Below, one piece after another: positions 306 through 46,429 of a DNA stretch of 50,737 bases. Position 1 is the stretch's first letter. Each line of letters opens with the position of its first letter. Where the stretch lies: positions 1 to 50,737 of the IMG/VR virus record IMGVR_UViG_3300034190_000767; one strand, written 5' to 3'. The stretch comes from a virus. The translations under genes and the position numbers were made by a program. The notes under the pieces are model-generated. The model worked only from the letters and a program-made list of their open reading frames with translations, was not told the DNA's origin and searched no databases.

Positions 306-1775
306 ACGGCTGCTCTTGCTACACTTGCGACAGTTACCGATAGTACTGCAAATACAAACTTCCCTGTGGTCTTTCACGATGAGTCAAATGCTCTATTAGA
401 TGATACGGGTGCATTACGTTACAACCCAAGTTCAGGCACACTACTTGTTCCAAATCTTGTTGTGGCGGGAACAACCACACAGGTTGACACGGTTACGATG
501 AATGCACAAAATGCTGTTGTGTTTGAGGGTGCAACTGCTGACGATCATGAAACAACACTTACAATCATTGACCCAACTGGCGATAGAACAATCAATCTAC
601 CAAACGTGAGTGGTACAATTCCTGTACTGGCGGCCGCATCAACCACACAGGTTACATCTACTCCAGAAGAACTTAATATTTTGGATGGTGCAACGGTTGT
701 CGTTGGTGAAATCAACGCATTGGATTTAGGCTCTACTGCTGTTGGTACTGCCATCGCAAGTAAAGCAGTTATCTTAGACTCAAATAAGGACTACACTGGT
801 GTAAGAAACTTTACCTTATCTGGTGAATTAGACGCTGGTAGCCTAGACGTTTCTGGTGACGTAGATATTGATGGTACTCTTGAAGCAGACGCAATTACAG
901 TCAATGGCACTGCACTTGCAGAATTCATCAGCGATACTGCTGGTGCGATGGTCAGTTCCAATACTGAAACAGGTATCACAGTAACTTATCAGGACGCTGA
1001 CAATACAATAGACTTTGCAATTAATGCTGCACAGACTACAATCACTTCACTACTTGCTACAGACATTAAGATTGGTGAAGATGATCAGACCAAGATTGAT
1101 TTCGAGACTGCTGATGAAATTCACTTCTATGCTGCAAACGCACACCAGATAAAACTTGTTGACGGCGCACTGGTTCCTGCAACAGACAATGATGTTGATT
1201 TAGGTACGAGTTTAGTAGAATTTAAAAATGCGTTCTTTGACGGTACAGTTACATCAGATGCATTTGCTGGGCCCCTGACAGGTAATGTTACAGGTAATGC
1301 TGATACCGCTACTGCACTCGCAACTGCTAGAACTATCGGTGGTGTATCATTTAATGGAACAGCTAATATTAATCTTCCCGGCGTAAATACTGCTGGTAAC
1401 CAAAATACATCTGGTAGTGCTGCAACTTTAACTACTGCAAGAAGTATCGCAATGTCAGGTGATGTTGTGTGGAGTGTATCATTTAATGGTAGTGGTAATG
1501 TAACTGGTGCTGGAACTATACAAAGTGGCGCAGTAGAAACGGGAATGATTGCTGCTGATGCAATAACTGGCGCTAAGATTGCTGATAATGCGATAAATAG
1601 TGAACACTATACCGATGGAAGTATTGATACTGCTCACATTGCCAACGACCAAATTACGCAAGCAAAAATGGCAAACGATTCCGTAGGTTCAGCAGAACTC
1701 AAAACTCTCTCCACGCTACTGATTAAAAACTCTTCTGGAACCACTTTAAAAACTTGTCATACTGCGGGTGCATAA
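3..1775 (+). CDS. Tail fibre-like repeat protein, 5' end outside the window
   Basis: The frame is open from base 3 to the TAA at 1773-1775, so the true start lies upstream. The product is rich in Thr, Ala, Gly, Asn and Asp, with short beta-forming repeats of the type GNVTGNADTATALATA and IGGVSFNGTANI, common in distal tail fibres of marine T4-like phages. A 101-codon segment at 3-305 recurs at 1113-1415. The C-terminal part is a string of ADAITGAKIADNAI-like units. It probably forms a trimeric adhesin shaft, an inference from composition. The exact receptor and the T4 counterpart (gp34/36/37 class) cannot be told. The next gene follows after 25 bases and is also fibre-like. Confidence 0.75.
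   Translation, partial: DEIHFYAANAHQVKIVDGAIVPATDDDVDLGTSSAEFKNAFFDGTVTSDAFAGPLTGNVTGNADTATALATARTIGGVSFDGTGNINLPGVNTAGNQDTSGTAALATLATVTDSTANTNFPVVFHDESNALLDDTGALRYNPSSGTLLVPNLVVAGTTTQVDTVTMNAQNAVVFEGATADDHETTLTIIDPTGDRTINLPNVSGTIPVLAAASTTQVTSTPEELNILDGATVVVGEINALDLGSTAVGTAIASKAVILDSNKDYTGVRNFTLSGELDAGSLDVSGDVDIDGTLEADAITVNGTALAEFISDTAGAMVSSNTETGITVTYQDADNTIDFAINAAQTTITSLLATDIKIGEDDQTKIDFETADEIHFYAANAHQIKLVDGALVPATDNDVDLGTSLVEFKNAFFDGTVTSDAFAGPLTGNVTGNADTATALATARTIGGVSFNGTANINLPGVNTAGNQNTSGSAATLTTARSIAMSGDVVWSVSFNGSGNVTGAGTIQSGAVETGMIAADAITGAKIADNAINSEHYTDGSIDTAHIANDQITQAKMANDSVGSAELKTLSTLLIKNSSGTTLKTCHTAGA
1113..1415 (+). repeat. Direct repeat within the tail fibre gene, copy 2
   Basis: Second copy of the 303-base in-frame repeat, starting at the Asp-Glu-Ile-His-Phe-Tyr codons and ending at Asn-Thr-Ser-Gly. 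The repeat period of 370 codons suggests that a whole fibre module was duplicated. Only the 3' third of the first module is visible here. Confidence 0.9.
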
Positions 1776-6721: not shown

Positions 6722-7413
6722 CAGTTCGTATCGGTAATAAGTATGGTCCAGAGTATGAGACATACTTAGAGAATAAACTACCAGAGTATAATTTTATCTG
6801 GGTTCGTGAACCATATCATCCAGACGTAACTTTGCAGTGGAACAAGATGTGGGGTATGCAGATGGACACTGATGAACCTATCTGTGTAATGGACATTGAC
6901 ATTCTATTGGTCAATGATTATAAGAAGGTGTTTGATTATCCAATCAAGCCGGGACAGTTTCTTGCGATGCCGGGGTGGTGGAGAAATGACTCAAATCTTT
7001 ATCAACTTAATGGTGGTTTCTTTAAATACTATCCGAAGGAGTGTCGTTACATCTATGATAAGTTTATGAGTAATGTGCATCACTGGCAAAAGTTCTACAT
7101 TGAAAACGGAACTACTACAGGACCAGTAAATGGGGAACAATATTTTGTAGGAGATAGTGTGAATGAGAGACTAGAACTCATTACACTTCCTGATGAATGG
7201 TTTACCAGATGGATTGCTGATAATAAAGTTATTGATTTTAAAAATAACAGAACTTGGCAATACAGTATGACTGAAAAATATAAAGAAAAGACAGGTAACG
7301 ATTGGATATATATGGGTGGGGAGTTTCATCCAGATATAAAGTTTGTACATTTTACGAACCACAGAAACAAACCACATGAATGGAGAGACTATGAAAGTTT
7401 TCTCAGCAACTAG
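6709..7413 (+). CDS. Second GT-A-like glycosyltransferase
   Basis: A 234-residue protein. ICVMDIDILLVND (about residues 58-70) supplies a DID at 62-64, in the place of the GT-A DxD motif. MPGWWRNDSNLYQLNGGFFKY is a typical acceptor-side segment (an NGGFF motif after the DxD). The gene layout resembles the 3381-4124 protein, but the two are clearly diverged. It overlaps the unknown gene upstream by 13 bases and the PP-loop gene downstream by 23. Substrate unknown. Two glycosyltransferases in one overlapping cassette suggest a multi-sugar or two-step modification; that is inference. Confidence 0.6.
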   Translation: MDIVAVRIGNKYGPEYETYLENKLPEYNFIWVREPYHPDVTLQWNKMWGMQMDTDEPICVMDIDILLVNDYKKVFDYPIKPGQFLAMPGWWRNDSNLYQLNGGFFKYYPKECRYIYDKFMSNVHHWQKFYIENGTTTGPVNGEQYFVGDSVNERLELITLPDEWFTRWIADNKVIDFKNNRTWQYSMTEKYKEKTGNDWIYMGGEFHPDIKFVHFTNHRNKPHEWRDYESFLSN

Positions 7414-8161
7414 CTCATCTTCAGATAGTGTGGCTATGTTGTATAAACTTCTTACTGAAACTACGGATGATGTAATATCAAGGATACTTACACTTGATGC
7501 ATCTGATCAAGATTTAGCACAGTATCCTATTGTCTGTAATTGGTTGAAAGAAAATGTTCGTGATTTTGATTTTGATTTTTCAGAGTTTGAAGATCGTGCT
7601 AGTGATACCATGTTGGAAACTATAAGATCAAAAAATTATAATGTTGCATTGTTGTCAGAGACGCACGATGTTGATTTGATATGTCTTGGTATAAATACAT
7701 ATAATTGGAGTCATTCTACTTGGTATTTTCAAACGACAGAACCGATTGAAAATTTTTATGCAAAAGGCAATCTGTACTCTAGAGTAGATCATTCCATTCT
7801 TAGAGATTACACAGATATCCCTATCGACTGGCCGTTGATGAATCGTAAAACTAAACCTATGGGTCGGTGGCAAACGTGGGAATCGTTACCAAAGGAACTT
7901 CAAAAATTAGTTTCTCTCTGTCCTTGTGGAAAGTGTGCTAAATGTAAATGTGGGGAATGGTATAACAAAAAGAAAAATGAAGGATTTAGTGCAGAAGAGC
8001 TTGATGATATTATTATGAAAGAAGGGAAATACGGAAAATATTACACAAAAGATAGTATTACAGAAACCAGACATGATGCTTATGCTGACCAAAGATTTCC
8101 AGTTTGGAGTCCGGCAACATTCAATTACCAATCATTACCGACAAAACCCCACAATAAGTGA
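7391..8161 (+). CDS. QueC-like PP-loop protein with degenerate PP motif
   Basis: Starting at ATG 7391, with GGAG at 7382-7385; an upstream in-frame ATG at 7343 would overlap the previous gene by 71 bases and is less likely. The 256-residue product begins MKVFSATSSSSDSVAML. SSSSDS sits exactly where PP-loop ATPases carry SGGxDS, so two glycines are lost. Near the C-terminal side, CPCGKCAKCKCGEW gives five cysteines like the zinc site of 7-cyano-7-deazaguanine synthase (QueC). ATP pyrophosphatase activity is doubtful; binding or a structural role is possible. It is the last gene of the overlapping cassette. Confidence 0.5.
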   Translation: MKVFSATSSSSDSVAMLYKLLTETTDDVISRILTLDASDQDLAQYPIVCNWLKENVRDFDFDFSEFEDRASDTMLETIRSKNYNVALLSETHDVDLICLGINTYNWSHSTWYFQTTEPIENFYAKGNLYSRVDHSILRDYTDIPIDWPLMNRKTKPMGRWQTWESLPKELQKLVSLCPCGKCAKCKCGEWYNKKKNEGFSAEELDDIIMKEGKYGKYYTKDSITETRHDAYADQRFPVWSPATFNYQSLPTKPHNK

Positions 8162-8209: not shown

Positions 8210-9031
8210 ATGGCCATACCTACAAGTAAATCAACATTCAAAGATTATTGTTTTAGGGCACTAGGTTCTGGTGTCATTGATATCAACGTGTCAGATGATC
8301 AAGCAGATGATCGTATTGACGAGGCATTGCAATTCTTTGCACAGTATCACTATGACGGTATTGAGAAGATGTATCTCAAACATCTTATTACCGAAGAAGA
8401 AGTTACGAGAGCAAGAGCAAACACAACATCAACCGGAACAGATACATCAGATAATTCCATCACCGCAACATTTCTGGAGGGTAATAACTTTATCCCGATG
8501 CCAAGTGCTGTTGTGTCTGTGATACAGGTATGGCCATTTACAGACACGGGCGGCGGTAGTAACATGTTTGATTTACGTTATCAGTTACGTCTCAATGATT
8601 TATTTGACCTTTCCTCTACGTCTGTCATTCAGTATCAGATGGCTATGGACAACTTAGACCTTCTAGAACATATTCTTGTGGGTGAGACACCGATCCGTTT
8701 CAATCAACATCAGAACCGTCTGTACATCGATGCAGATTGGGAGAATGACTTTACTGCTGGAACAGACTATATCATTGTCGAGTGTTATCGTAAACTAGAC
8801 CCAGCAACTTACACAGATATTTTTGACGACATCTATCTCAAGAGATATGCAACTGCACTAATCAAACAACAGTGGGGTGCGAACTTGTCTAAGTTTAGTG
8901 GTGTTGCAATGCTCGGTGGTGTTACCATGAATGGTGAAACTATTTACTCACAAGCACAGGAAGAGATTAATAAACTAGAAGAACAAATCGCACTTACGTT
9001 TGAGTTACCAGTAAATTACATGGTAGGATAA
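8210..9031 (+). CDS. 13: Neck protein gp13
   Basis: A 273-residue protein beginning MAIPTSKSTFKDYCFRALG, with NVSDDQADDRIDEALQFFAQYHYDG shortly after. This is the typical N-terminus of gp13 in marine T4-like phages (T4 gp13 is 309 residues). gp13 joins gp14 in the neck, which closes the filled head and accepts the tail. Its position directly before gp14 and gp15 agrees. It has its own late promoter at 8183. Confidence 0.85.
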   Translation: MAIPTSKSTFKDYCFRALGSGVIDINVSDDQADDRIDEALQFFAQYHYDGIEKMYLKHLITEEEVTRARANTTSTGTDTSDNSITATFLEGNNFIPMPSAVVSVIQVWPFTDTGGGSNMFDLRYQLRLNDLFDLSSTSVIQYQMAMDNLDLLEHILVGETPIRFNQHQNRLYIDADWENDFTAGTDYIIVECYRKLDPATYTDIFDDIYLKRYATALIKQQWGANLSKFSGVAMLGGVTMNGETIYSQAQEEINKLEEQIALTFELPVNYMVG

Positions 9032-9033
9032 TC

Positions 9034-9996
9034 ATGGCAGTTAATAAGCATTTCCATACAAATGGTGTGAGTGCGATTGCATCTGAACAGTCTCTATATG
9101 CTGACTTAGTTGCAGAAGCTATTCATCACAGAGGACACTCTGTATATTATCTTGACCGTACACTTGTTGCAGAAGATACTGTTCTTGGTGAAGATTCTTT
9201 GTCAAAATTTAACAAACAATCTCTTATTGAAATGTATATGGAAGACTCTGGTGGTGGGTTTGCTGGTCAACAAGAACTGATGACTCAATTTGGTTTGCAA
9301 AATCTAAGTGAAGCAACCTTCGTTGTAAGTAAGACAAAGTTCCAAGAGAAGACAAAGCAAATACAACTTGAGGATGGTACAGACTCATCTGAATCTGGTT
9401 CTGTTCAGTTGGAGTCTGGTACGGTAACTGACAGCACAATATCTTATATACTAAACGAAACTGATGCAACTGATTCTGACAGGCCCTTTGAGGGCGATGC
9501 AATTTATCATCCAGTACTAAAGAAATTGTTTCAGATTAATTTTGTAGATCATGATGACCCTTTTAACCAGTTAGATTCCAATCCTGTTTACAAGATGCGT
9601 TGTCGATTGTTCGATTATTCTTCTGATGAACTTAGTACAGGTATTACTGAAATTGATGCAATCGTAGATAATTTATCGGTTGCCAGTTCTGATTATCAGT
9701 TTACACTAGAAAATGAAAGTATTATTGGTCAGTCATTTACAATAGATATAAATGGATATACTTTAGATGCAACGAATGTTACCCTTGATGCTACAATAGT
9801 TGGCGCAGATCAAGACCCAACTTCGTTTGGTGAAAGTTTATTGCTTGAAGATGGTAGTTACATTATATCTGAGGAGTTTGTGCTTGGTGATGGTGTCATT
9901 GATAAAACTGCTCAGAACGAGTTGTTTGATGACTTAGATGATACTGTTCTAGACTTTAGTGAGTCAAATCCATTTGGTGATGCAGGAGGATTATAA
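9034..9996 (+). CDS. 14: Neck protein gp14, first of two tandem copies
   Basis: A 320-residue protein. SEQSLYADLVAEAIHHRGHSV, YYLDRTLVAEDTVLGEDSLSKF and KQSLIEMYMED correspond to T4 gp14 (LVEDLIIESIKFYGVDVHYL, LFGEDVLSKF), which is 256 residues. The extra length is mostly a Glu/Asp/Ser/Gly-rich segment (LEDGTDSSESGSVQLESGT) and a variable stretch at about 225-275. The next gene is a close paralogue. It starts 2 bases after gp13 stops, with TAGGAT as ribosome site, and its stop overlaps the next start as TAATG. gp14 forms the neck with gp13. Confidence 0.85.
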   Translation: MAVNKHFHTNGVSAIASEQSLYADLVAEAIHHRGHSVYYLDRTLVAEDTVLGEDSLSKFNKQSLIEMYMEDSGGGFAGQQELMTQFGLQNLSEATFVVSKTKFQEKTKQIQLEDGTDSSESGSVQLESGTVTDSTISYILNETDATDSDRPFEGDAIYHPVLKKLFQINFVDHDDPFNQLDSNPVYKMRCRLFDYSSDELSTGITEIDAIVDNLSVASSDYQFTLENESIIGQSFTIDINGYTLDATNVTLDATIVGADQDPTSFGESLLLEDGSYIISEEFVLGDGVIDKTAQNELFDDLDDTVLDFSESNPFGDAGGL

Positions 9997-10964
9997 TGAC
10001 TACAGGACAAGTTATTTCATCTGAACAATCACTATATGCAAACTTGATTGCAGAAGCAATTCAAATTCACGGACATGATGTATATTATCTTGACCGCACA
10101 CTAGTTGCAGAAGATACAGTTCTAGGAGAGGATTCTTTGTCTAAGTTCAACACTCAGGCTCCTATAGAAATGTATATGGAAAATTCTGATGGTGGATATG
10201 CTGGTGAACAAGAAGTGATAACTCAGTTTGGTTTAGAAAACCTAAGTGAAGCAACTTTTGTAGTTAGTAAAGTAAGATTTCAAGAGAAGACAAAACAAAT
10301 ACAAATTGAAGATGGTACAGATTCAACATCGTCTGGTTCAATTCTTTTAGAATCTGGGTCAATAGCAACATCTAAACTGGAAGGCGAAACATTTTATATT
10401 CTAAATGAAACGGATGCGACTGATGCTGATCGTCCTCTAGAGGGTGATGCAATTTATCATCCACTACTTAAAAAATTATTTGAGATTAACTTTGTAGATC
10501 ATGATGATCCTTTTCATCAACTTGATACCAATCCTGTTTATAAGATGCGATGTCGCCTGTTTGATTATGGGTCAGAGGAACTTGATACAGGCATTACAGA
10601 CATTGATGCGATTGAAGATTCTCTCTCAATTGCAAGTTCGGATTATCAATTTACTCTTGAACAGGCAACAGGAACTACAATTAACCAAGAAATCAGAATT
10701 GATCACGCAACCAGTGATGGTAGTGGATTACTTCTGGATGAAACAGATAGTGACAATATTATTGGTGAGGATGAGACTGATCTTGGTGGTGAGAGTATTC
10801 TACTTGAAACTGGTGGTGATGAATATCTCATACAGGAAGACTATATAGTAGGAGATGGAGTAACGGATAAGACAGCTCAAAATGAGTTGTTTGAAACATT
10901 GGATGATACGATACTGGACTTCAGTGAATCGAATCCATTTGGTGATGCAGGGAGTGCAGATTAA
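9996..10964 (+). CDS. 14: Neck protein gp14, second tandem copy
   Basis: A 322-residue paralogue of the preceding protein. Over the first ~100 residues from SEQSLYA about four in five positions are identical. The C-terminal ~35 residues (DKTAQNELF...SNPFGDAG) are also nearly the same. Residues about 230-275 differ, with repeats such as GLLLDETDSDNIIGEDETD and SILLETGGDEY. Both copies are intact and start codons overlap upstream stops on both sides, so both are likely made. T4 has one gp14. Two forms could build a mixed ring or specialise; that is inference. Confidence 0.85.
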   Translation: MTTGQVISSEQSLYANLIAEAIQIHGHDVYYLDRTLVAEDTVLGEDSLSKFNTQAPIEMYMENSDGGYAGEQEVITQFGLENLSEATFVVSKVRFQEKTKQIQIEDGTDSTSSGSILLESGSIATSKLEGETFYILNETDATDADRPLEGDAIYHPLLKKLFEINFVDHDDPFHQLDTNPVYKMRCRLFDYGSEELDTGITDIDAIEDSLSIASSDYQFTLEQATGTTINQEIRIDHATSDGSGLLLDETDSDNIIGEDETDLGGESILLETGGDEYLIQEDYIVGDGVTDKTAQNELFETLDDTILDFSESNPFGDAGSAD

Positions 10965-13383: not shown

Positions 13384-13809
13384 ATGGTAAATGAAATAGA
13401 TAAAGCGCTTGGAGTGGTTGGGGATGTTATTCCACCAGAAGCTTCTTTAAACCCAAAAACTAAAATGTCTGATGTTTCTCGTTATCCAGTAGAACTGGAA
13501 GATGACGAAGATATTGATGCTGATTACAAATACCAAAGAGAGAACTTCTATCGATTGGTTGAACAGGGTTCCACTGCGATTGAGGGTATCCTTGAACTTG
13601 CCAAAGAGGGTGAACACCCAAGGGCATACGAGGTTGCTGGACAGTTAATCAAGAATGTTGCAGAGGTTACTGAAAAACTAGGCGACTTACAAGAGAAGAT
13701 GAAAAAACTCAAAGAGGTTCCCAATAACGCACCGAAGAGTGTTACGAATGCATTGTTTGTTGGCAGCACTGCTGAGTTACAAAAAATGTTGAAAGGTAAA
13801 AGTGACTAA
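13384..13809 (+). CDS. 16: Terminase small subunit gp16
   Basis: A 141-residue protein. The central helices (YQRENFYRLVEQGSTAIEGIL, then ELAKEGEHPRAYEVAGQLIK, then VAEVTEKLGDLQEKMKKL) match the T4 gp16 central oligomerisation core (ETAKNADSPRHMEVFATLM). The end ATNALFVGSTAELQKML-like motif (residues about 121-136, VTNALFVGSTAELQKML) corresponds to T4 NATVFMGSPTELMD. gp16 forms a ring that regulates the gp17 packaging motor and recognises DNA. In T4 the gene abuts gene 17; here two enzyme genes separate them. Its end overlaps the next GTG start by 8 bases. Confidence 0.9.
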   Translation: MVNEIDKALGVVGDVIPPEASLNPKTKMSDVSRYPVELEDDEDIDADYKYQRENFYRLVEQGSTAIEGILELAKEGEHPRAYEVAGQLIKNVAEVTEKLGDLQEKMKKLKEVPNNAPKSVTNALFVGSTAELQKMLKGKSD

Positions 13810-14806
13810 AGTTATATATTATTATTCACATTCTTTTCCAGAAATAATGAAGAGAGATGAGTACAGGTTAGCAACTAATTTTGGTCTACACTCTCCACGT
13901 TTTAGAATTGGTTTTGATAATCAATTTGATCTGGTTGAGAATCCTTTTACAGAGTTTCCAACAAATTTTACATCAACCTTCGAAGATTTAACTAATCGCA
14001 GGGCTGTAGAGCTATGGGATATTGGCAAACCAATAAGATTATGGTGGTCAGGTGGTATAGACAGTACATGTGCATTGGTAAGTCTTCTGAAAACTAGAAG
14101 ATTGGATACAAGCCTTACTGTGTATCTATCAAAAGCTAGTGTGCAAGAAAATCCACGTTTTTATGATTTGTTAGTTAATAATAAAATTAATTTGCAGTGG
14201 CATTCTCACGATAACTATGTTCATAACAATGATGAGTTATGGAACGGACAAACAATCAATGTGAATGGTGGCGGTGGAGATGAACTGTTTCTTGCAATAT
14301 CGTCAAAAGTGTCTATGGAGGAGTTCTTTAAAATCAAAGATGAGAGTTGGATTCATCTTATGAAAAATCCTGATATGTTGAATACAGCAGAAAAGTATAT
14401 TGATATGTCTCCGTACAAACCAGAAACGTGTTGGGAGTTCCTTTGGTGGTTAGCAAGGAGTATAGATGATTTATTGTCAGTATATTTCTCACCAAGATTT
14501 TTAAAAGACCCATCCGTGTATCACTTAGAATACTCATTTTTCTATACAGATTATTTTGATAAGTGGGCTTTATCTAATCCATATGTAGGGCATAACGGTG
14601 ACTATAGAACATATAAATGGCCGATGAAAAGATACATATATGATTATGATAAGAATGAAGATTACTTGTATACAAAACAGAAGGAAAGTTCCTTTCCCTC
14701 AGTTGTTCTGGAGCAAACGCAAATCCAATATCTAGGGGCGTCTCGTAATGAATATGTTCTTAATAGTATTGTGTATGAAGATGGTACATACGTTAGATAT
14801 AAATAG
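13802..14806 (+). CDS. Asparagine-synthetase-like PP-loop ATPase
   Basis: A 334-residue protein with GTG start inside the end of gp16. RLWWSGGIDSTCALVSLL (about residues 77-94) is an intact PP-loop, SGGIDST. NVNGGGGDELFLAIS (about 155-170) corresponds to the G-E-G-x-DELF motif of asparagine synthetase C-terminal domains. There is no N-terminal glutaminase domain (no Cys2), so it would need ammonia or another amine donor, or make a different amide. It is distinct from the three QueC-like proteins. It lies between the two terminase subunits, and its last codons contain the late promoter for the next gene. Confidence 0.6.
   Translation: MTKVIYYYSHSFPEIMKRDEYRLATNFGLHSPRFRIGFDNQFDLVENPFTEFPTNFTSTFEDLTNRRAVELWDIGKPIRLWWSGGIDSTCALVSLLKTRRLDTSLTVYLSKASVQENPRFYDLLVNNKINLQWHSHDNYVHNNDELWNGQTINVNGGGGDELFLAISSKVSMEEFFKIKDESWIHLMKNPDMLNTAEKYIDMSPYKPETCWEFLWWLARSIDDLLSVYFSPRFLKDPSVYHLEYSFFYTDYFDKWALSNPYVGHNGDYRTYKWPMKRYIYDYDKNEDYLYTKQKESSFPSVVLEQTQIQYLGASRNEYVLNSIVYEDGTYVRYK
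14798..14805 (+). promoter_or_regulatory. T4-type late promoter before the nuclease/gp17 genes
   Basis: Perfect TATAAATA overlapping the end of the PP-loop gene. It is followed by AAGGAG (14810-14815) and ATG 14822. It would let gp17 be transcribed independently of gp16. Confidence 0.75.
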
Positions 14807-14821
14807 AACAAGGAGACGATT

Positions 14822-15232
14822 ATGTATGAGTATCCATGTAAAATCATTAAGGTAATAGACGGAGATACCGCCGATGTGGACATTGATCTTGGTTTCGGTG
14901 TGTGGTTGAAGAAACAGAGGATTCGTTTCTACGGTGTTGACACACCTGAGTCAAGGACAAGTGACAAAGAAGAAAAGGTCTATGGCCTGATGGCAAAGGA
15001 GTTTGTACAGAAACATCTTCCTTTGGATTCGATACAGGTTCTACGCACTAGGAAAGATGGTAAGGGAAAATATGGTCGTATTCTTGGTGAGTTTGTCATA
15101 GGTGATACAACACTAAATCAGTTGTTAATTGACACACACAATGCGGTTGCATACTACGGGCAGTCTAAAGAAGACATTGCAGAAGAGCATTTAAGAAACA
15201 GAGAACTTGTGAGTGTAGAGAATTATCCGTAA
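14822..15232 (+). CDS. Thermonuclease-like (SNase-fold) nuclease
   Basis: A 136-residue protein of the staphylococcal nuclease family. KVIDGDTADVDIDLG (residues 10-24) provides the first acidic ligands, RIRFYGVDTPESR (33-45) provides an Arg, Asp40, Thr41 and Glu43, and KYGRILGE (83-90) provides the second catalytic Arg86. All usual catalytic groups are present. It has no signal peptide, so it acts in the infected cell: host DNA degradation, phage DNA processing or nucleotide recycling. It is fused to the terminase transcript, its stop overlapping gp17's start by one base. Placement beside the packaging nuclease is notable, but a packaging role is inference. Confidence 0.85.
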   Translation: MYEYPCKIIKVIDGDTADVDIDLGFGVWLKKQRIRFYGVDTPESRTSDKEEKVYGLMAKEFVQKHLPLDSIQVLRTRKDGKGKYGRILGEFVIGDTTLNQLLIDTHNAVAYYGQSKEDIAEEHLRNRELVSVENYP

Positions 15233-16875
15233 TGCCTGATATTACTTACCTCGGCAATCCAAACCTAAAGAAAGCTAATGTCGCCCAGAACTGGACGAAA
15301 GAAGAACTTGTTGAGTACCAGAGGTGTATGGATAGTCCTCAGTATTTTATTGAGAACTATGTAAAGATTGTCTCTTTGGATGAGGGTCTTGTGCCTTTTA
15401 AAATGTATGACTTCCAGAAAGAAATGGTAGGGACATTTCATAACAATCGTTTCACTATCTGTAAGTTACCCAGACAGTCAGGCAAGTCTACCGTCATGGT
15501 TTCATATCTGTTGCACTATGCGTTGTTTAATGCAAGTGTTAATATCGCAATACTTGCGAACAAGGCTGCAACTGCTCGTGACCTACTATCACGTTTGCAA
15601 CTTGCGTATGAACATCTACCGAAGTGGTTACAACAGGGAGTAATGAGTTGGAATAAAGGTTCCTTGGAGTTAGAAAATGGTTCAAAGATACTTGCCTCAT
15701 CTACTAGTGCTAGTGCTGTTCGTGGTGGCAGTTACAACATCATTTTTCTGGACGAATTCGCCTATGTACCCTCAAACGTGGCAGAGCAATTTTTTTCCTC
15801 TGTGTACCCCACAATTTCATCTGGTAAGACAACAAAAGTAATGATCGTCTCCACCCCGCATGGTATGAACATGTTCTATAAACTATGGGTGGATGCAGAA
15901 GAACAGAGAAACGAGTACATTCCTATTGAGGTACATTGGAGTGAGGTGCCGGGCAGAGACGAAGCGTGGAAAGAACAGACGATTAAGAATACCTCTCAAG
16001 CGCAGTTCAATACAGAATTTGAGTGTGAGTTCCTTGGTTCTATTGATACACTTATCGCACCGTATAAACTGAAACAACTGACATATCGTTCACCAATACA
16101 GTCTAGTGCGGGTCTAGATGTTCATGTTGCTCCACAACCAGACCATACATACGTTCTCGTTGCAGATGTTGCGAGAGGTACATCAAACGATTATTCTGCG
16201 TTTGTGGTTGTGGATGTAAGTGAAATACCATATAGAGTGGTCGCAAAGTTTAGAGACAATGAACTGAAACCCCTTATATTTCCATCCAAGATTTATGATG
16301 TTGCAAGAGCATACAATCAAGCATTCGTATTGATTGAGGTTAATGACATAGGAGAACAGGTTGCTAGTGCGATGCAGTTTGACTTGGAGTATGACAACCT
16401 TATTATGGCAAGTATGCGTGGGCGAGCGGGACAGGTCATTGGAGCAGGGTTCAGTGGTGGTCGAGCGCAGTTGGGGGTAAGAACAACTAAGGCTGTAAAA
16501 AAGATTGGTTGTTCTAATCTCAAACAGTTGGTTGAGGATAATAAACTTATTCTTGAGGATTATGACTGTATCAACGAACTTTCTACCTTTATTGTTAAGG
16601 GTCAATCATTTGAAGCAGACGATGGGTGCAATGATGATTTGGTTGCGTGTCTCTTTATATTTGCGTGGTTGACAGACCAGACATACTTCAAGGAATTAAC
16701 TAACAACGATATTCGACGGGTCATGATGAATGAACAACAGGACATGCTTGAACAGGATATGGCACCATTTGGTTTTGTTGTGAATGGTCTTGAGGATGAG
16801 AATATAGGTGAGATGGTTGATGAGTACGGAACTCGTTGGGCTCCTATTATTAGAGATAGTTCTACGAGTTGGTAA
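15232..16875 (+). CDS. 17: Terminase large subunit gp17
   Basis: A 547-residue packaging motor. Walker A is KLPRQSGKS (about residues 79-86), as in T4 PRQLGKT. Walker B with the catalytic Glu is IIFLDEFAY (170-178). The nuclease domain opens with VLVADVARGTSNDYSAF (about 308-324), where Asp312 is the expected metal ligand; a later DDLVACLFIFAWL supplies further acids. gp17 powers DNA translocation into the prohead and cuts the concatemer. Length is close to T4 gp17 (610). Its stop codon directly abuts the stop of the convergent ABC permease gene with no gap and no visible terminator. Confidence 0.95.
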   Translation: MPDITYLGNPNLKKANVAQNWTKEELVEYQRCMDSPQYFIENYVKIVSLDEGLVPFKMYDFQKEMVGTFHNNRFTICKLPRQSGKSTVMVSYLLHYALFNASVNIAILANKAATARDLLSRLQLAYEHLPKWLQQGVMSWNKGSLELENGSKILASSTSASAVRGGSYNIIFLDEFAYVPSNVAEQFFSSVYPTISSGKTTKVMIVSTPHGMNMFYKLWVDAEEQRNEYIPIEVHWSEVPGRDEAWKEQTIKNTSQAQFNTEFECEFLGSIDTLIAPYKLKQLTYRSPIQSSAGLDVHVAPQPDHTYVLVADVARGTSNDYSAFVVVDVSEIPYRVVAKFRDNELKPLIFPSKIYDVARAYNQAFVLIEVNDIGEQVASAMQFDLEYDNLIMASMRGRAGQVIGAGFSGGRAQLGVRTTKAVKKIGCSNLKQLVEDNKLILEDYDCINELSTFIVKGQSFEADDGCNDDLVACLFIFAWLTDQTYFKELTNNDIRRVMMNEQQDMLEQDMAPFGFVVNGLEDENIGEMVDEYGTRWAPIIRDSSTSW

Positions 16876-17610
16876 CTAAACACCCTCACCGTATTTAATC
16901 CAACTACAAAATCTACGTTTTAAAAACTCTGTACCCCAACCGATTCCTAAACCAATTATACTGAGCCAGATTATTCCAGCAAACATTTCTGCAAAATCCA
17001 TTTCTCCACCAGTTATGAATATCCAGTTTCCCAAACCATACTTTGAACCTAACATTTCTGCTGCAACTAACAACACCAATGACAAACTACCGCTTGTCCT
17101 AAATCCTGAGATTATCGTCGGCATACTAATCGGTAAAATTATTTTTCGTAAAATAAACCAATAACCCCCACCACAAGCACGGCCTGCTTCTACATAGGTA
17201 GTGGGTGTTCTTATAATAGAATTGTATGCGATCAATATACTGGGAAAGAATGCCCCGATAAAAATAGTTGTTACTTTGCTCACTTCTCCTATTCCCAGAA
17301 GAACTATGAACAGAGGTAATAGTGCAATTTTTGGAATAGGAAATAAACAACTCACTAGTGGCATTATAAGTTTCTTCACATGTAAATTACTACCCATGAA
17401 GACACCAATGGTAGTTCCAATTAACATCCCAATTGACCAACCAACAACAAGTCTACACAGACTAATCCATAGGTTATAAAGAAAATCTGGGTTAACTGAT
17501 AACTCAAAGAAAGTGGTGGTTATATCCCATAAGCCCGGAATATAACCACCCTTTAACAATAGCTCCCATATAACTACAACAACAGAAATTGTTATGAGTG
17601 TATGTTTCAT
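16876..17610 (-). CDS. ABC transporter permease (TauC/SsuC/ThiX type)
   Basis: A 244-residue membrane protein with about six hydrophobic helices. The EAA loop that docks on the ATPase is present: VEAGRACGGGYWFILRKIILP (about residues 138-158), followed by the usual ISGFR. GIGEVSKVTTIFIGAFFP and LGLGN-like turns fit the nitrate/taurine/alkanesulfonate/thiamine-precursor importer family. The length is slightly below the bacterial norm of about 250-265. Its start overlaps the binding-protein stop as ATGA, so the two are cotranslated. No ATPase gene is present in the window, so it would need a host or distant phage subunit. It is host-derived by inference and the only minus-strand operon here. 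Confidence 0.85.
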   Translation of the reverse strand: MKHTLITISVVVVIWELLLKGGYIPGLWDITTTFFELSVNPDFLYNLWISLCRLVVGWSIGMLIGTTIGVFMGSNLHVKKLIMPLVSCLFPIPKIALLPLFIVLLGIGEVSKVTTIFIGAFFPSILIAYNSIIRTPTTYVEAGRACGGGYWFILRKIILPISMPTIISGFRTSGSLSLVLLVAAEMLGSKYGLGNWIFITGGEMDFAEMFAGIIWLSIIGLGIGWGTEFLKRRFCSWIKYGEGV

Positions 17611-18578
17611 TCACCTAGATCAAAATATTTGTTGTCAGGATGACGAGTTGGTAAATTTAATTTTTCTACCAGTATGGTTGTAAATTCACTTAAACGAGGA
17701 CCAACCATACTGGGATTACTAATTCCATTTTTCTGTACAAATGGCGTATTAACAAGTTCGTCAATACCATACTGAGCCCTTCTTACTTCAATATCTACTT
17801 TTTTACTTGTAGATACAACTGGACCTTCCAATGCAGATACACTTGCAGCAGGATTTTTAATAAAATCTTTTAGTAGTTGGCGTGATACCTCACGAAGAAC
17901 TTTTACTGCCTGTGGATTTTTTGCTGCCCAATCTGCATTTACAGTGATTACTCGGCTCACTGCCATTGGATAATGATCACTAAGTTTAATGATATTTAAT
18001 TCGTCAATACCAACTCCTACCTTTTCCAGATTGAAAACTACAGATGTTGTAAATGAGGTGATTGCATCAATATGTCCAGATACTAGTGCAGGGACACGGG
18101 CGGGCATGTGTACAGGAACATTTACCCACTTGGCAGATGTTACAGTAGTTAAAACTTTATTGGTAAAACTAGTGGGATGACTACCAAGTTTACGACCATT
18201 TAAATCATCGAATGTCTTAATACCCGATGATTTAAGGGTAATTACTCCGTTTTGTGACTTATCATCAACAACAAAGACCGCTAAAACTTTAGGGTCAGTT
18301 GATTTACTATTGACAAGAACCACACCACTATAGTCATGATATCCAATGTCTGCTCTTCCAGTTGCGAGAGCAAGACCAGTTTTAACACTACCTGGCCCCT
18401 TTCCTACAAATTCAATATCTAGTCCACGTTTAGAAAATGCACCGTTTTGGATTCCTTTCAGAAACCAACTGTGTACACCAAAGGGTCCAGTATCTATAAT
18501 AAGTTTTGCTTGTGTTGATGCATGAACTGAAGACATGCATAGTAATAGGGTAAATACCCCACAAATTAATGATTTCAT
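17607..18578 (-). CDS. Periplasmic substrate-binding protein (NMT1/TauA/SsuA-like)
   Basis: A 323-residue protein. The N-terminus MKSLICGVFTLLLCMSSVHA is a clear Sec signal peptide with probable cleavage after VHA. GPFGVHSWFLKGIQNGAF then RGLDIEFVGKGPG, ALATGRADIGYHDYSG and LNGRKLG follow the order of NMT1/SsuA-like binding proteins for sulfonates, nitrate, or thiamine-pyrimidine precursors. The ligand cannot be read from sequence. The ribosome site is AAAGGAG before ATG. It is followed by the overlapping permease gene. It is expected in the periplasm of the infected Gram-negative host. This indicates that the phage supplements nutrient uptake during infection; that is inference. Confidence 0.85.
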   Translation of the reverse strand: MKSLICGVFTLLLCMSSVHASTQAKLIIDTGPFGVHSWFLKGIQNGAFSKRGLDIEFVGKGPGSVKTGLALATGRADIGYHDYSGVVLVNSKSTDPKVLAVFVVDDKSQNGVITLKSSGIKTFDDLNGRKLGSHPTSFTNKVLTTVTSAKWVNVPVHMPARVPALVSGHIDAITSFTTSVVFNLEKVGVGIDELNIIKLSDHYPMAVSRVITVNADWAAKNPQAVKVLREVSRQLLKDFIKNPAASVSALEGPVVSTSKKVDIEVRRAQYGIDELVNTPFVQKNGISNPSMVGPRLSEFTTILVEKLNLPTRHPDNKYFDLGE

Positions 18579-18611
18579 AATGATACTCCTTTATGACTCA
18601 AATCATTTACT

Positions 18612-18641
18612 ATTATATATATGTTAGATAAATTCAATCAA
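18612..18641 (-). promoter_or_regulatory. Sigma70-like promoter for the ABC transporter genes
   Basis: On the minus strand TTGATT (18641-18636), an 18-base spacer and TATAAT (18617-18612) precede the binding-protein ATG at 18578. No TATAAATA is seen here. The operon may therefore be read by host-type polymerase rather than by the late sigma. Confidence 0.5.
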
Positions 18642-18923
18642 ATCATGATGTTTCTTGATAAAGCAGTTATAACATAGAATGACAGACTGATCAATTAGGT
18701 GAAATACCTCTTTGCGGCTTTCATCACTTGTTCCAACTCTCTTGGATACCTTGCGTATCTCTGCATCATGGGGGTAGAATTTAAGACAAACGTGTTCTGC
18801 CTCACCACAGTGAATACAGGATTTGTCTGTGAGAAATTCATTAAGAAGAAATACTCGTTTCTGGTAGTTTCTTCGTGAAACCTTCTTGATGGTGTCTTTG
18901 TATTTTTCATAATGTTCATTCAT
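18624..18923 (-). CDS. Small HNH-like zinc protein
   Basis: A 99-residue protein if the ATG at 18923 is used; an in-frame ATG at 18947 adds eight residues but would contain the promoter. CIHCGE and CYNC are two CxxC pairs, with LKFYPHD between them and KKHHD after. This is the arrangement of small HNH endonucleases (CxxC, L-x-FxHxD, CxNCH), but the second-site His is replaced (CYNCFIKKHH), so cleavage is uncertain. Small HNH proteins next to terminase genes assist packaging in some phages; that role is inference here. The N-terminal part is very basic. Confidence 0.5.
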   Translation of the reverse strand: MNEHYEKYKDTIKKVSRRNYQKRVFLLNEFLTDKSCIHCGEAEHVCLKFYPHDAEIRKVSKRVGTSDESRKEVFHLIDQSVILCYNCFIKKHHDLIEFI

Positions 18924-18928
18924 AATTC

Positions 18929-18936
18929 TATTTATA
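18929..18936 (-). promoter_or_regulatory. T4-type late promoter for the HNH-like gene
   Basis: TATAAATA on the minus strand, ending five bases before ATG 18923. The predicted start of transcription falls on or next to the start codon. The same spacing and nearly the same bases (TATAAATAGA..) occur at 27722. Confidence 0.6.
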
Positions 18937-18979
18937 TGATATAACACTTATAAAAATGAGTTTTGTAAAAGAGGTTTTT

Positions 18980-18987
18980 TATAAATA
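18980..18987 (+). promoter_or_regulatory. T4-type late promoter before gp18
   Basis: Perfect TATAAATA after a T run, 41 bases before the gp18 ATG. The leader contains AGGAG at 19017-19021. It is divergent from the HNH promoter. Confidence 0.85.
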
Positions 18988-19028: not shown

Positions 19029-21242
19029 ATGGGATTTCTAGTTTCGCCCGGCGTTCATGTACGGGAAATTGATCTTACAAATGTTGTTCCAGCTGTATCT
19101 ACGTCTATCGGTGCTATTGCCGGACCTTTTCAGAAAGGTCCAGTAAGTTCAGTTACCGCTATTAGTTCGGAAGAACAGTTGCTACAGACATTCGGTAAAC
19201 CAAACAGTTCAAATTTTGAGTGGTGGTTCACTGCTGCAAACTTCTTGCAGTACGGTGATGCACTCAGGGTGGTTCGTACAGAATCAGGCATTCTAAACGC
19301 TGGTGCAAATAGCGGTATTCTCATTCGTGACGATGACCACTATGAGGACAGTTTCTCTACAGGACAGGGTTCTCACGGTGAGTGGGCTGCTCGTACCGCT
19401 GGTACTTGGGGTAACTCAATCGGTGTGGATATTTGTCCCAGCGCAAGAGCATTTGAACAGCCTCTGGGTACACTTAACTTAGTGAATGGTGCTGGTGCAG
19501 TTGGTGATTTGCAAATCACAGTTGATGACCAAGATGCAACTGATGCAACAATCGCAGTCGGTGACATTATTAAGTTTTTCACAAACAACTCTGTCACTGC
19601 AACATCTAACGGGGCAATCACAGTTCCATCTAAAACTCTTACGGTTGATGGTAACTCTGGTACAATCGCAGTTGGTCAACGTGTGATTGGTGCCGGTATC
19701 TCTGATGGTGGCGTTCAGGCTAAAGTTGTAACAGTTACTTCTCAGACTTCTCTTATCCTTGATAAAGCAATTACGGTAGCTGACAATGTGCCTCTTGCAT
19801 TTGATACGGTCACCGCAGTTGAAGCTGGTAATGTAGAATACGAAGTTACTTCTGTTTCTGGTAATATTCTAACTATTCGTCAACTGGATGATCCTGCCGG
19901 TGGTGGACTTAAAACAGTTATTCCTGATAACTCCTATATTCAACGTCGATGGCGTTTCAGTGACCTTTTTGATGGGCCTCCGGGCACATCCGATTGGGCA
20001 ACTGCAAACGGGCGGGGTGAGAAAGATGAATTGCACGTTTGTGTTTATGACACAACAGGTGACATCACTGGATTTGATGTTGATGTTAAGGGTCAACGCA
20101 CTGCGGCAGTTATCGAAGTTTTCCCTGCTTTGTCTAAGAACCCAAGTGCAAAAACTACACAGGGTGGTAATAACTACTATCCAGATGTTATCTTCCGTAG
20201 TTCTAACTTTATCTACTGGACGGATCATCTGGCTGCTGGTTCTAACTGGGGTACAGATATTGCAACAGGTACGGACTATACACTAGTAAGTGGTGTTGAT
20301 GTTTCAGCACTGACAGGTGGAACGGACGATTACTCTGTAACTGCTGGTGAAATTGAACGTGGCTATGACAAGTTCGCTGACACAGAAAATCTTGACATCA
20401 ACCTAGTCATGGGTGGTCCAAGTTCTGGTGTTACAGATAGTGATGATGGTCAGGATACTTTTGTGACCATGATTACTGATCTTGTTGAATTACGAAAGGA
20501 TTGCGTCGGTTTTGTATCCCCTTATCGTTCGGCAACAGTTGGTGTAACATCATCCATCGCTCAAACATATAATGTAAGGAATGCATTTGATAAATGTCCA
20601 TCATCCTCTTATATGGTATTCGATAGTGGATACAAGTACATGTATGATAAGTACAACGATGTGTATCGATTTGTGCCGCTAAATGGTGATACTGCTGGTC
20701 TTTGCGCCAATACAGACAGTGTTGCAGACCCTTGGTTCTCACCAGCGGGTTACAATCGTGGTGGTGTTCGTGGTGCAATCAAACTTTCTTACAACCCACA
20801 GAAAGCAGATCGTGACATTCTTTACAAGTCACGGATTAATCCAGTTGTTGATTTTCCCGGCCAAGGTGTTACACTCTTTGGTGATAAGACTGCTCTTTCC
20901 AAACCAAGTGCATTTGACCGCATTAACGTGCGTCGATTGTTCCTTGTTCTTGAAAAGGCAATCGCCACTGCTGCTAAGTTCCAACTCTTTGAGTTCAACG
21001 ATGAATTCACAAGAGCGCAGTTCCGTAATCTGGTAGAGCCCTTTTTGCGGGATGTGCAGGGCCGTAGAGGTATTTTCGACTTTAAGGTAGTTTGTGACAC
21101 AACTAATAACACTGGTGAGGTCATTGACCGTAACGAGTTTATTGGGGACATCTACATCAAACCAGCAAGGTCAATCAACTTTATTACACTAAACTTCATC
21201 GCCGTTCGAACTGGTGTTGCGTTTAGTGAGGTAGGAGGTTAA
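19029..21242 (+). CDS. 18: Tail sheath protein gp18
   Basis: A 737-residue protein (T4 gp18 is 659). The start GFLVSPGVHVREIDLTNVVPAVSTSIGAIAG is the hallmark N-terminus of myovirus sheath proteins, and the C-terminal ~150 residues (INVRRLFLVLEKAI, then FEFNDEFTRAQFRNLVEPFL, then GEVIDRNEFIGDIYIKPARSINFI) are the conserved sheath core. The middle (about 150-300) is a beta-rich insertion that probably lies on the sheath outside. It forms the contractile sheath around the gp19 tube. It ends 2 bases before gp19. Confidence 0.95.
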   Translation: MGFLVSPGVHVREIDLTNVVPAVSTSIGAIAGPFQKGPVSSVTAISSEEQLLQTFGKPNSSNFEWWFTAANFLQYGDALRVVRTESGILNAGANSGILIRDDDHYEDSFSTGQGSHGEWAARTAGTWGNSIGVDICPSARAFEQPLGTLNLVNGAGAVGDLQITVDDQDATDATIAVGDIIKFFTNNSVTATSNGAITVPSKTLTVDGNSGTIAVGQRVIGAGISDGGVQAKVVTVTSQTSLILDKAITVADNVPLAFDTVTAVEAGNVEYEVTSVSGNILTIRQLDDPAGGGLKTVIPDNSYIQRRWRFSDLFDGPPGTSDWATANGRGEKDELHVCVYDTTGDITGFDVDVKGQRTAAVIEVFPALSKNPSAKTTQGGNNYYPDVIFRSSNFIYWTDHLAAGSNWGTDIATGTDYTLVSGVDVSALTGGTDDYSVTAGEIERGYDKFADTENLDINLVMGGPSSGVTDSDDGQDTFVTMITDLVELRKDCVGFVSPYRSATVGVTSSIAQTYNVRNAFDKCPSSSYMVFDSGYKYMYDKYNDVYRFVPLNGDTAGLCANTDSVADPWFSPAGYNRGGVRGAIKLSYNPQKADRDILYKSRINPVVDFPGQGVTLFGDKTALSKPSAFDRINVRRLFLVLEKAIATAAKFQLFEFNDEFTRAQFRNLVEPFLRDVQGRRGIFDFKVVCDTTNNTGEVIDRNEFIGDIYIKPARSINFITLNFIAVRTGVAFSEVGG

Positions 21243-28461: not shown

Positions 28462-28893
28462 ATGGATTTAGAGACACTAAAACGAACTGCAAGGGAAGAC
28501 CTTCCCGTATCTGATCACGAACACATTGATCAGGAATCTTTTAAAAATCAAATGATCAAACAGAAGTGGTTGGACTACAAGGCTGACTTCGAACTTCTGC
28601 TCATCAAATCAAAGACTGACCATCAACAGATGTACCGTGAAAAGTGGGAATACTATGGTGGTAAGGCAGATGCAAAAGTGTATGCATCCAAACCCTTTGA
28701 CATCAAAGTTATGAAGACAGACCTTCAGATGTATATTCAATCTGACGATGACATTCTTCGACTCCAAAACAAAATCGGGTATTACGAATCCTGTGTGGAC
28801 TACTGCAAAGGTGTAATCAAGTCTATCGACAATCGTGGATGGGACATTCGTAATGCAACTGATTGGAAGAAATTTGAAGCGGGTATGATATGA
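28462..28893 (+). CDS. uvsY: Recombination mediator UvsY
   Basis: A 143-residue protein (T4 UvsY is 137). MIKQKWLDYKADFELLLIKSK, then REKWEYYGGKADAKVYASKPF, DIKVMKTDLQMYIQSDDDIL and the end NRGWDIRNATDWKKFEAGM align with T4 UvsY (ARLDYYSGRGDG, EMKTVLSADKDVL, SRGFAIKHIQDMRAFEAG). It loads UvsX recombinase on gp32-coated single-stranded DNA. UvsX itself is not in the window. The gene follows the T7 terminator of the candidate RNA by 14 bases and starts the recombination block. Its stop overlaps the next start as ATGA. Confidence 0.9.
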   Translation: MDLETLKRTAREDLPVSDHEHIDQESFKNQMIKQKWLDYKADFELLLIKSKTDHQQMYREKWEYYGGKADAKVYASKPFDIKVMKTDLQMYIQSDDDILRLQNKIGYYESCVDYCKGVIKSIDNRGWDIRNATDWKKFEAGMI

Positions 28894-29381
28894 TTCATTA
28901 CACCAACATTCATAATGTTTTTTCTGTTCCTGATACGTTGGAAGATGGTGTTATTACAAATGAAAGCGGCAAGGTTAAAAGGAACTCAAAGGTATCTTTT
29001 ATTGAAGATGCTGAAATCTGTAGAGAAATCTTTAACATAATCGATTCTACCACACCAATAAATCTAACTGATATTGAACCATTGCAATATTCTGAATATG
29101 GTGTTGATGATGAATATGGATGGCATCGTGATGTTCATGACGAGCCATATTCGAATGGACTAGTTCGAAAGGTATCCTTTTCGACTATTCTAAATGATAA
29201 TTTCGAAGGTGGTGAATTTGACATTGAGACAAAAAATCCAGAGGATAATAGAAGATACGAAACATTTAAATCTGAAGAATACAACACTATAATATTTCCC
29301 GCTCACATGTGGCACAGAGTAAGACCTGTAAAGTCTGGAGTCAGAAAATCCATTGTGGGTTGGTTACTAGGAAGGCCATAA
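28890..29381 (+). CDS. 2OG-Fe(II) oxygenase, prolyl-hydroxylase-like
   Basis: A 163-residue protein. YGWHRDVH gives His79 and Asp81 (HxD). FSTILNDNFEGGEFDI is the usual strand with the GGEF turn. FPAHMWHRVRPVKSGVRKSIVGW gives the distal His142 and the 2-oxoglutarate-binding Arg152. All four ligand residues are present, so it should be active. Small oxygenases of this type are common in marine T4-like phages; targets (nucleic acid or protein) are unknown. Coupled by ATGA to uvsY and by TAATG to the SpeD-like gene. Confidence 0.8.
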   Translation: MIHYTNIHNVFSVPDTLEDGVITNESGKVKRNSKVSFIEDAEICREIFNIIDSTTPINLTDIEPLQYSEYGVDDEYGWHRDVHDEPYSNGLVRKVSFSTILNDNFEGGEFDIETKNPEDNRRYETFKSEEYNTIIFPAHMWHRVRPVKSGVRKSIVGWLLGRP

Positions 29382-41712: not shown

Positions 41713-42828
41713 ATGGTGAAATTCCACACATATGAAGACCTTTCCCCAGAGGAACAATCAGCGTTTCTTGAGAAACAGGGAATGACTGAAAACGAATACC
41801 TCAAGGAGAGGAATGCTAATCTCAAAAAGGCTTCACCCTTTTTGACATTAGAAGATATGACTCCAGAGCAGCGTAAAGATTATGATGAGCGGAAGCGCAA
41901 AGAAAAACAAATTTTAGAGAAAAGAGAGAAACGAATGGAAGAACAGAATGCTACAAAAGAAGAGATTGAAAGGGCACGGGAAAAGTATCTTAACAAACTC
42001 GATATGACAATTGACCCTATCCCAAACCATTATATTGGGAAGATTCAATTTTCTCAAGAAATCGTTGACGAGATTAACGAACATATTGACGCAACAAGCG
42101 ATGATGTGCCTAACATGGCAGAGAAACTTGTTGGTCAATTGAAGAACGATGAGAAATCGAGACAAGTGGATTTTGATATAACAACTGAAGTTGGTCAACA
42201 GGTAAAGACAGTTTTTGACTCTATTGGTTCTGCTTATCTACAACAGGGTTATGGTCGTAAGTCTATTGCTGAAGTATTTGAAATCTGGACAAACCATGCA
42301 TATGCGGGTGACTACAATCCTCTACATGACCACGGGTCACGCACCACTGCTGGACTGTCTGGTTTCATGTGGACCAAGTTACCCGATTGTATGACTGAAC
42401 AAGAAGTGCCAGAAGGTAAGAACTTCTTTAATAATGCATCTGGCATTGCTGATGGTTGGACGCACATGATTTGGGGATTGCAACAGAGGCGTGATGTACA
42501 TCGTCTGTATCCTCGCACTGAGGAATATATTCAACCAAGGGTTGGTCTTATGTATGTTTTCCCGCAATGGATGAAGCATCAGGTACTTCCATTCTTTGGT
42601 CCGGGCGAACGCCGTTCCATTGCAATGAACTGGGCAGTCTATGACTCTGAAGCAGAACTTCGTGACTTCTTTACTCCCGGCGAATGGAAAACATTCTATG
42701 AAGAAAATATCAAGGACACTCCTGCTGAAACTGATGAATCGCAACCTTATCGTGTTATGATTGATGGTGTTGAAACCTATATTCGTCGTGATATCTTTAA
42801 GGAGGAGAAGCATCCTAGTGAAGAATAA
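41713..42828 (+). CDS. 2OG-Fe(II) oxygenase, large marine-phage type
   Basis: A 371-residue protein. Residues about 1-100 are helical and very charged (KRKEKQILEKREKRMEEQ, a coiled coil). The oxygenase domain follows: IWTNHAYAGDYNPLHDHGSRT carries the proximal ligands (His205, Asp206, His207 region), LSGFMWTKLP is the core strand, and QWMKHQVLPFFGPGERRSIAMNW supplies the distal His and the Arg. It matches the 2OG-FeII_Oxy_5-like family frequent in cyanophages. Its target is unknown. The ribosome site of the next gene is in its last codons. Confidence 0.8.
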   Translation: MVKFHTYEDLSPEEQSAFLEKQGMTENEYLKERNANLKKASPFLTLEDMTPEQRKDYDERKRKEKQILEKREKRMEEQNATKEEIERAREKYLNKLDMTIDPIPNHYIGKIQFSQEIVDEINEHIDATSDDVPNMAEKLVGQLKNDEKSRQVDFDITTEVGQQVKTVFDSIGSAYLQQGYGRKSIAEVFEIWTNHAYAGDYNPLHDHGSRTTAGLSGFMWTKLPDCMTEQEVPEGKNFFNNASGIADGWTHMIWGLQQRRDVHRLYPRTEEYIQPRVGLMYVFPQWMKHQVLPFFGPGERRSIAMNWAVYDSEAELRDFFTPGEWKTFYEENIKDTPAETDESQPYRVMIDGVETYIRRDIFKEEKHPSEE

Positions 42829-46038: not shown

Positions 46039-46429
46039 TTGGACACAGGAGATGATGCTAGAAGTCGGGTTGAAAGAACCTGATGACTTTCTGAAGGTAA
46101 GAGAGACTCTATCTCGTATTGGCGTTGCATCCCGTAAAGAAAAGAAACTGTATCAGTCATGTCATATTCTGCATAAGCAGGGTAGGTATTTCATTGTGCA
46201 TTTTAAGGAGCTCTTTGCTCTGGACGGTAAGAATACAAATCTGACAATCAATGATATTTCTCGTAGGAATACGATTGCCAAACTATTACAGGATTGGGGA
46301 CTGATCAATGTTATTGGTGAGCTTGGTGAAGTTGCTCCGCTCAGTCAGATTAAAGTATTGTCATATTCTGAGAAGGGTGATTGGACACTAGAAACCAAAT
46401 ATAACATTGGAAAGAAAAAAGAAGTCTAA
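46025..46429 (+). CDS. regA: Translational repressor RegA
   Basis: 134 residues from ATG 46025 (T4 RegA is 122). PDDFLKVRETLSRIGVASRKEKKLYQSCHILHKQGRYFIVHFKELFALDG is very close to T4 RegA (PEDFLKVKETLTRMGIANNKDKVLYQSCHIL). It binds mRNA near start codons of early genes and represses their translation. The extra N-terminal INWTQEMMLEVGL replaces T4's short start. Its stop overlaps the next start as TAATG. Confidence 0.95.
   Translation: MEEINWTQEMMLEVGLKEPDDFLKVRETLSRIGVASRKEKKLYQSCHILHKQGRYFIVHFKELFALDGKNTNLTINDISRRNTIAKLLQDWGLINVIGELGEVAPLSQIKVLSYSEKGDWTLETKYNIGKKKEV

Follow-up and report, generated by a model that had tools for sequence, protein, structure and literature searches.

To our knowledge, the viral genes for nutrient uptake known so far encode mostly single proteins, such as binding proteins (SBPs) of the PstS type and ammonium or phosphate transporters. 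T4-like cyanophages carry hypervariable insertions of host genes between g15 and g18 (PMC2984593), and in HEG-islands nuclease genes stand at the boundaries of exchanged DNA (PMC10448857). Among cellular ABC importers, NrtC and CmpC contain a cytosolic SBP-like domain that serves as regulator (PMC6603209, PMC11349869), and in Staphylococcus aureus the single ATPase FhuC serves several importers that have none of their own (PMC10147376). ABC transporters are not mentioned in the paper describing phage Melnitz (PMC9004378), and the literature searched yielded no account of phages that carry an SBP and a permease as cargo without the ATPase.

The importer pair and its genomic setting

Such a pair is found in the IMG/VR record IMGVR_UViG_3300034190_000767, whose whole analysed stretch of 50,737 nt is called here the window; it is a fragment, the genomes of its cultured relatives measuring 141–147 kb. 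The features of the locus are the following:

15232..16875, plus strand: gp17, large subunit of the terminase, flanking the slot on the right (PF03237, PF17289)
16876..17610, minus strand: ABC importer permease (TauC/SsuC/NrtB-type), 244 aa (PF00528, 1e-21)
17131..17190, minus strand: EAA loop, EAGRACGGGYWFILRKIILP (permease residues 141-160), the element on which an ATPase docks
17607..17610, minus strand: ATGA shared by the SBP stop and the permease start (GGT GAA TGA / ATG AAA CAT)
17607..18578, minus strand: SBP of the NMT1/THI5-like family, 323 aa (PF09084, 3.5e-23; omega 0.12-0.28)
18519..18578, minus strand: residues 1-20 of the SBP, a probable Sec signal peptide with its cut after VHA (sequence and hydropathy)
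18579..18621, minus strand: cassette leader, with the -10-like TATATATAAT and then TGATTTGAGTCATAAAGGAG, which includes the ribosome-binding site
18624..18947, minus strand: HNH-like gene, probably starting with the ATG at 18923 (phrog_3106, 1.2e-5)
19029..21242, plus strand: gp18 tail sheath, flanking the slot on the left (Phage_sheath Pfam matches; phrog_23, 3.6e-129)

Both reading frames lie on the minus strand between gp17 and gp18, where an earlier note on this DNA had described them as an inverted pair, and the ATGA overlap that it reported is read directly in the sequence. The flanking genes are a clear T4-type terminase and sheath by Pfam and PHROG, and the permease stop directly abuts that of gp17 (16875/16876). 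Compared by terminase, the cultured phages nearest to the window are the Methylophilales phage Melnitz (69.7%) and the Pelagibacter phage HTVC008M (67.7%). Two divergent late-promoter-like boxes TATAAATA are located between the HNH-like gene and gp18, at 18929-18936 (minus) and 18980-18987 (plus), and the window contains eight such boxes against 2.9 expected. Elsewhere in the window, 2OG-Fe(II) oxygenases and a RimK-like ATP-grasp protein (28890-29381, 41713-42828, and 46429-47478) appear amid T4-like core genes, and a tRNA search found none.

The assignment to importer components, also made in the earlier note, stands well above the curated cut-offs of both families, with 83.1 bits for the SBP against PF09084 (NMT1; cut-off 20.5, residues 36-245) and 78 bits for the permease against PF00528 (BPD_transp_1; cut-off 26.4). 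The permease has 5–6 hydrophobic segments and keeps its EAA loop (EAGRACGGG...LP) intact, as the note had said, so that it shows the two marks of an ABC importer permease, and its closest solved structures are CmpB (1.8e-14) and a nitrate permease (1.3e-13). The SBP begins with the hydrophobic stretch MKSLICGVFTLLLCMSSVHA, followed by S, with hydropathy peaking at 2.7 over residues 4-15, which is consistent with a Sec signal peptide, a call that comes from hydropathy only.

Relatives in cells are distant. In plasmid records they reach about 30% identity for the SBP and about 43% for the permease, the best cellular relatives of the two proteins being different, and of two scans of cellular genome contigs the first found none and the second one distant archaeal match at 26%. 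Cultured phages yielded no relative of the SBP; 22 of their records contain permease relatives at roughly 26–31% identity, probably as host or prophage DNA.

Recurrence, cargo slot and lateral movement

The locus is found again in related phages, as the earlier note had suggested looking for. The SBP is present in 26 other IMG/VR contigs, 22 T4-like and four belonging to a second phage background. In the former it adjoins the same HNH-like gene and T4-like structural genes, in the order gp18, HNH-like gene, SBP, permease, and gp17 wherever the contig is long enough (16 of the 22 are complete from the HNH-like gene to gp17), and these copies share with the window 83–99% (SBP) and 84–100% (permease) protein identity. 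In the other four (L020, L021, L022, and L029) identities drop to 55–62 and 65–75%, respectively, and the surroundings comprise a DNA polymerase III-type gene, nrdA/nrdB, and other phage genes, with a PP-loop protein after the pair. In L029 there is in addition a tryptophan halogenase (8423-10000) directly downstream of the pair and the PP-loop gene; HTVC008M likewise has a tryptophan halogenase beside its terminase gene. Wherever both genes are intact they overlap by 4 or 1 nt. The EAA loop is canonical in all the T4-like relatives and in L020-L022, and diverged in L029/G003. Inactivating changes in homologues, named in the earlier note as a ground for rejecting its proposal, amount, among the SBP genes of the 23 relatives read, to one frameshift (L019), the other 22 copies being intact.

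Upstream of every T4-like copy the leader 20-mer TGATTTGAGTCATAAAGGAG is exact, i.e., the pair brings its own strictly conserved leader. This conservation suggests that it may act as a promoter; a sigma-70-like match (TTGATT-18-TATAAT) is located within it, in a scan that overall gave no excess over shuffled sequences.

The constant neighbor of this site is the HNH-like gene, which accompanies the slot in the 80 loci kept, whether cargo is present or not, and is found at the same junction in Melnitz (55%). We call it HNH-like since its sole support is the weak PHROG match listed above, it has no Pfam match, and its second C-x-x-C is followed by F instead of the usual H, so the protein possibly has no catalytic His. 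A scan with this gene gave 189 relatives, of which the best 80 loci by similarity were kept and the pair-carrying contigs added. Counting distinct contigs that reach from the HNH-like gene to the end of gp17 (with L082 and L019 counted once), the pair is present in 16 contigs and the window, the slot is empty in 49, and eight hold other cargo, figures that are not population frequencies because the sample was chosen by HNH similarity and by presence of the pair. One of the 16 has an additional PP-loop gene. In the empty slots 6–54 bases separate the HNH-like and gp17 stops. The other cargo consists of PP-loop (SGGxDS) proteins and a Sulfotransfer_2 protein, together with a DegT-type aminotransferase accompanied by an asparagine-synthase-like protein. 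In two contigs (L115 and L116) the 54-base gap consists of ACATATATATAATTATAGTGATT GGAGCACATATGGTGAGGGTGTTTGA, the leader fused to the last codons of the permease, which reads as a deletion scar of the cassette.

Several further observations concern this region. In both phage types, large PP-loop proteins that match no Pfam family are found repeatedly next to the slot and next to the pair (window 13802-14806; the slot of L093, L109, L111, L126, L128, L131, and L134; in the second type L021:11721-12869 and L029:7245-8423). The terminase gene itself is split by inserts in L136, L137, and L138 (about 7156-8132), where a GIY-YIG-like protein and a reading frame with an intein-like end (...GLVSHN) are found, and in L015/L134. 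Between gp18 and the HNH-like gene, L141 has a gene for a NifU/IscU-like iron-sulfur scaffold (687-1118, plus strand; PF01592, 6.6e-25).

The substitution rates indicate how the pair has travelled. Between the window and the clade-B contigs L011, L014, and L018, dS is 0.36–0.39 for the SBP and 0.35–0.42 for the permease, and against L013 it is 0.42 and 0.34; in these same comparisons gp17 gives 2.1–3.2 or saturation and the HNH-like gene 1.9–2.5 or saturation, so that between phage clades the dS of the pair is 5–8 times below that of its neighbors. The nearer L006 shows 0.18–0.29 for the pair and 1.3 for gp17. Nucleotide identity shifts near the stop of the HNH-like gene and near that of the permease, and together with the low dS this means that the cassette moved between phages later than its neighbors diverged. 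Omega is 0.12–0.28 for both genes. On sequence evidence, then, the pair is a cassette that moves laterally and evolves under purifying selection; the earlier note had located it correctly and missed its mobility, the pair being exchanged in a slot beside the HNH-like gene. With cell-type genes that lie amid phage genes, recur, and evolve at such omega values, it has the marks of a viral auxiliary gene set.

The missing neighboring ATPase and the alternatives

In the 50.7-kb window there is no ABC-transporter ATPase, the sole PF00005 match being the gp46-like protein at 33869, and none was found in the other T4-like contigs, of up to 64.5 kb. We consider it rather probable that the pair is a mobile auxiliary cassette of T4-like marine phages, an importer half powered by an ATPase of the host or one encoded at a distance in the phage. 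The cassette would supply the part of a type I ABC importer that determines its substrate, namely a secreted SBP and a translationally coupled permease expressed from their own leader. During infection a small solute would be captured by the SBP in the periplasm; the permease homodimer would use its EAA loop to dock onto a TauB/SsuB/NrtD-type ATPase, either the own ATPase of the host or one from elsewhere in the phage genome; the infected cell would then import the solute, presumably with some benefit to the phage.

A complete but split importer, with SBP and permease in one slot and the ATPase elsewhere in the same genome, is a less likely reading that has a concrete case in its favor. In the lineage 2 contig G003 the pair coexists with an intact ABC ATPase 22 kb downstream (Walker A GPSGCGKST, LSGGM, Walker B LMDEPFG), which adjoins a 309-aa NMT1-like protein without signal peptide, in a contig with one permease only. 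The solved structures closest to this ATPase are CmpC, CmpD, and nitrate ATPases, matching those of the permease. Thus, the statement in the earlier note that the pair comes without its ATPase holds for the window and the T4-like fragments, but not for this phage. In the split importer the cytosolic NMT1-like protein is a possible regulator, functionally comparable to the regulatory domain of NrtC/CmpC; no fusion of that kind is seen, the two parts being separate neighboring genes in G003 and absent from the window.

A further 14 contigs contain relatives of the signal-less protein, located directly 3' of gp23 in the T4-like contigs that show gp23, and one of these (L074) also has the same HNH-like gene. 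In cells they lie beside ABC importers in a Geminicoccaceae plasmid and a Nostoc plasmid, and in the former, coral-associated, the gene for the NMT1-like protein stands in a row with genes for an SBP, a permease, and an ATPase. The family comprises L064-L075 (mostly immediately 3' of gp23), L076, L077, and L057:10938-11867, with 61–64% identity between unrelated phages and signal-less relatives in bacteria and haloarchaea; a profile search found no solved structure for it.

Against the split importer, no ATPase turned up in any T4-like contig, and the pair and the cytosolic NMT1-like gene were looked for in the same T4-like contig and not found together; the NMT1-like protein is absent from the three T4-like sequences with the pair in which the 3' side of gp23 is readable (window, G001, and L013). 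Besides, the nearest relatives of the G003 ATPase belong to two-permease systems, the EAA loop of the G003 permease has diverged, and the Geminicoccaceae SBP is unmatched by the phage SBP. It is accordingly doubtful, and equally so in its broader form, that marine phages of at least two unrelated groups might run a fully phage-encoded, dispersed importer, with the SBP/permease and ATPase/sensor modules as separate cargo in hypervariable slots of the virion gene region.

It is quite improbable that the pair acts by interference, competing for the host ATPase or ligand and so shutting down host uptake or excluding other phages. Fragments without ATPase would be expected from a decoy and the kept EAA loop would suit it too, but a decoy would need just one of the two proteins, and here an SBP and a full permease are tightly coupled and under purifying selection. 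More improbable again is that the pair is neutral DNA carried along in a recombination hot spot and plays no role in infection: presence/absence polymorphism, other cargo, the deletion scar, and one frameshifted copy would all be natural in such DNA, but its genes should not show this omega, an SBP so rarely damaged, or a conserved leader. The assembly chimera of host and phage DNA envisaged in the earlier note, to which genes typical of cells might point, is ruled out together with chance because identical junctions on both sides recur in many independent contigs from different metagenomes, and diverged copies are flanked by equally recognisable phage genes.

Substrate and comparison with known systems

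As to the substrate of the mobile importer half, the curated models for sulfonate, taurine, and nitrate were missed by wide margins: the SBP scores 43.1 bits against SsuA_fam (cut-off 163.5) and 33.7 against TauA (304), the permease 91.9 against TauC (342) and 63.5 against SsuC (347). The best solved relatives of the SBP profile are 4nmy (3.9e-9) and, as a weak match, ThiY (3ix1, 3.7e-4), and the AlphaFold2 model for pocket reading, built from 18 sequences, had a mean pLDDT of 40.9. The sulfonate, nitrate, or thiamine-precursor substrate of the earlier note is thus left unsupported, with SsuA and TauA cut-offs missed and a weak leaning to ThiY. We would rank a thiamine-pyrimidine-like compound first and an organosulfonate or another small anion after it, each of them unlikely when taken singly. 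SAR11 has a known pyrimidine requirement, and a thiamine-precursor link would fit it if the host were SAR11-like.

If the favored reading is true, phages would be using the interchangeability of ABC ATPases to direct host transport to new targets. The locus offers a sharply defined case for testing, with natural presence/absence polymorphism and a signal of exchange, and its slot lets other marine phage cargo be read (PP-loop proteins, sulfotransferase, and aminotransferase).

Like TauABC, SsuABC, NrtABCD, and CmpABCD, the phage pair combines an SBP of the NMT1 superfamily with a permease, here closest to CmpB and a nitrate permease; unlike them it has no adjacent ATPase, and it misses all the curated equivalog cut-offs. 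ThiXYZ is approached through the weak profile match to ThiY (PDB 3ix1), but an Rfam search of the window gave no match, TPP riboswitch included, and no thiamine gene was noticed near the pair. Melnitz and HTVC008M have similar flanks and lack the cassette at the same site. As in HEG-islands, a nuclease-like gene lies beside exchanged DNA; here, however, there is a single HNH-like gene, on one side, so that the cargo is not bracketed by homing endonuclease genes, and this cargo is accessory rather than essential. With the g15-g18 region of cyanophages the locus shares the insertion of host-like genes in the structural module just before g18, but here the slot is a defined one, bounded by a convergent HNH-like gene and by gp17; it occurs among relatives of OM43/SAR11 phages and carries minus-strand transport genes instead of carbon/photosynthesis genes.
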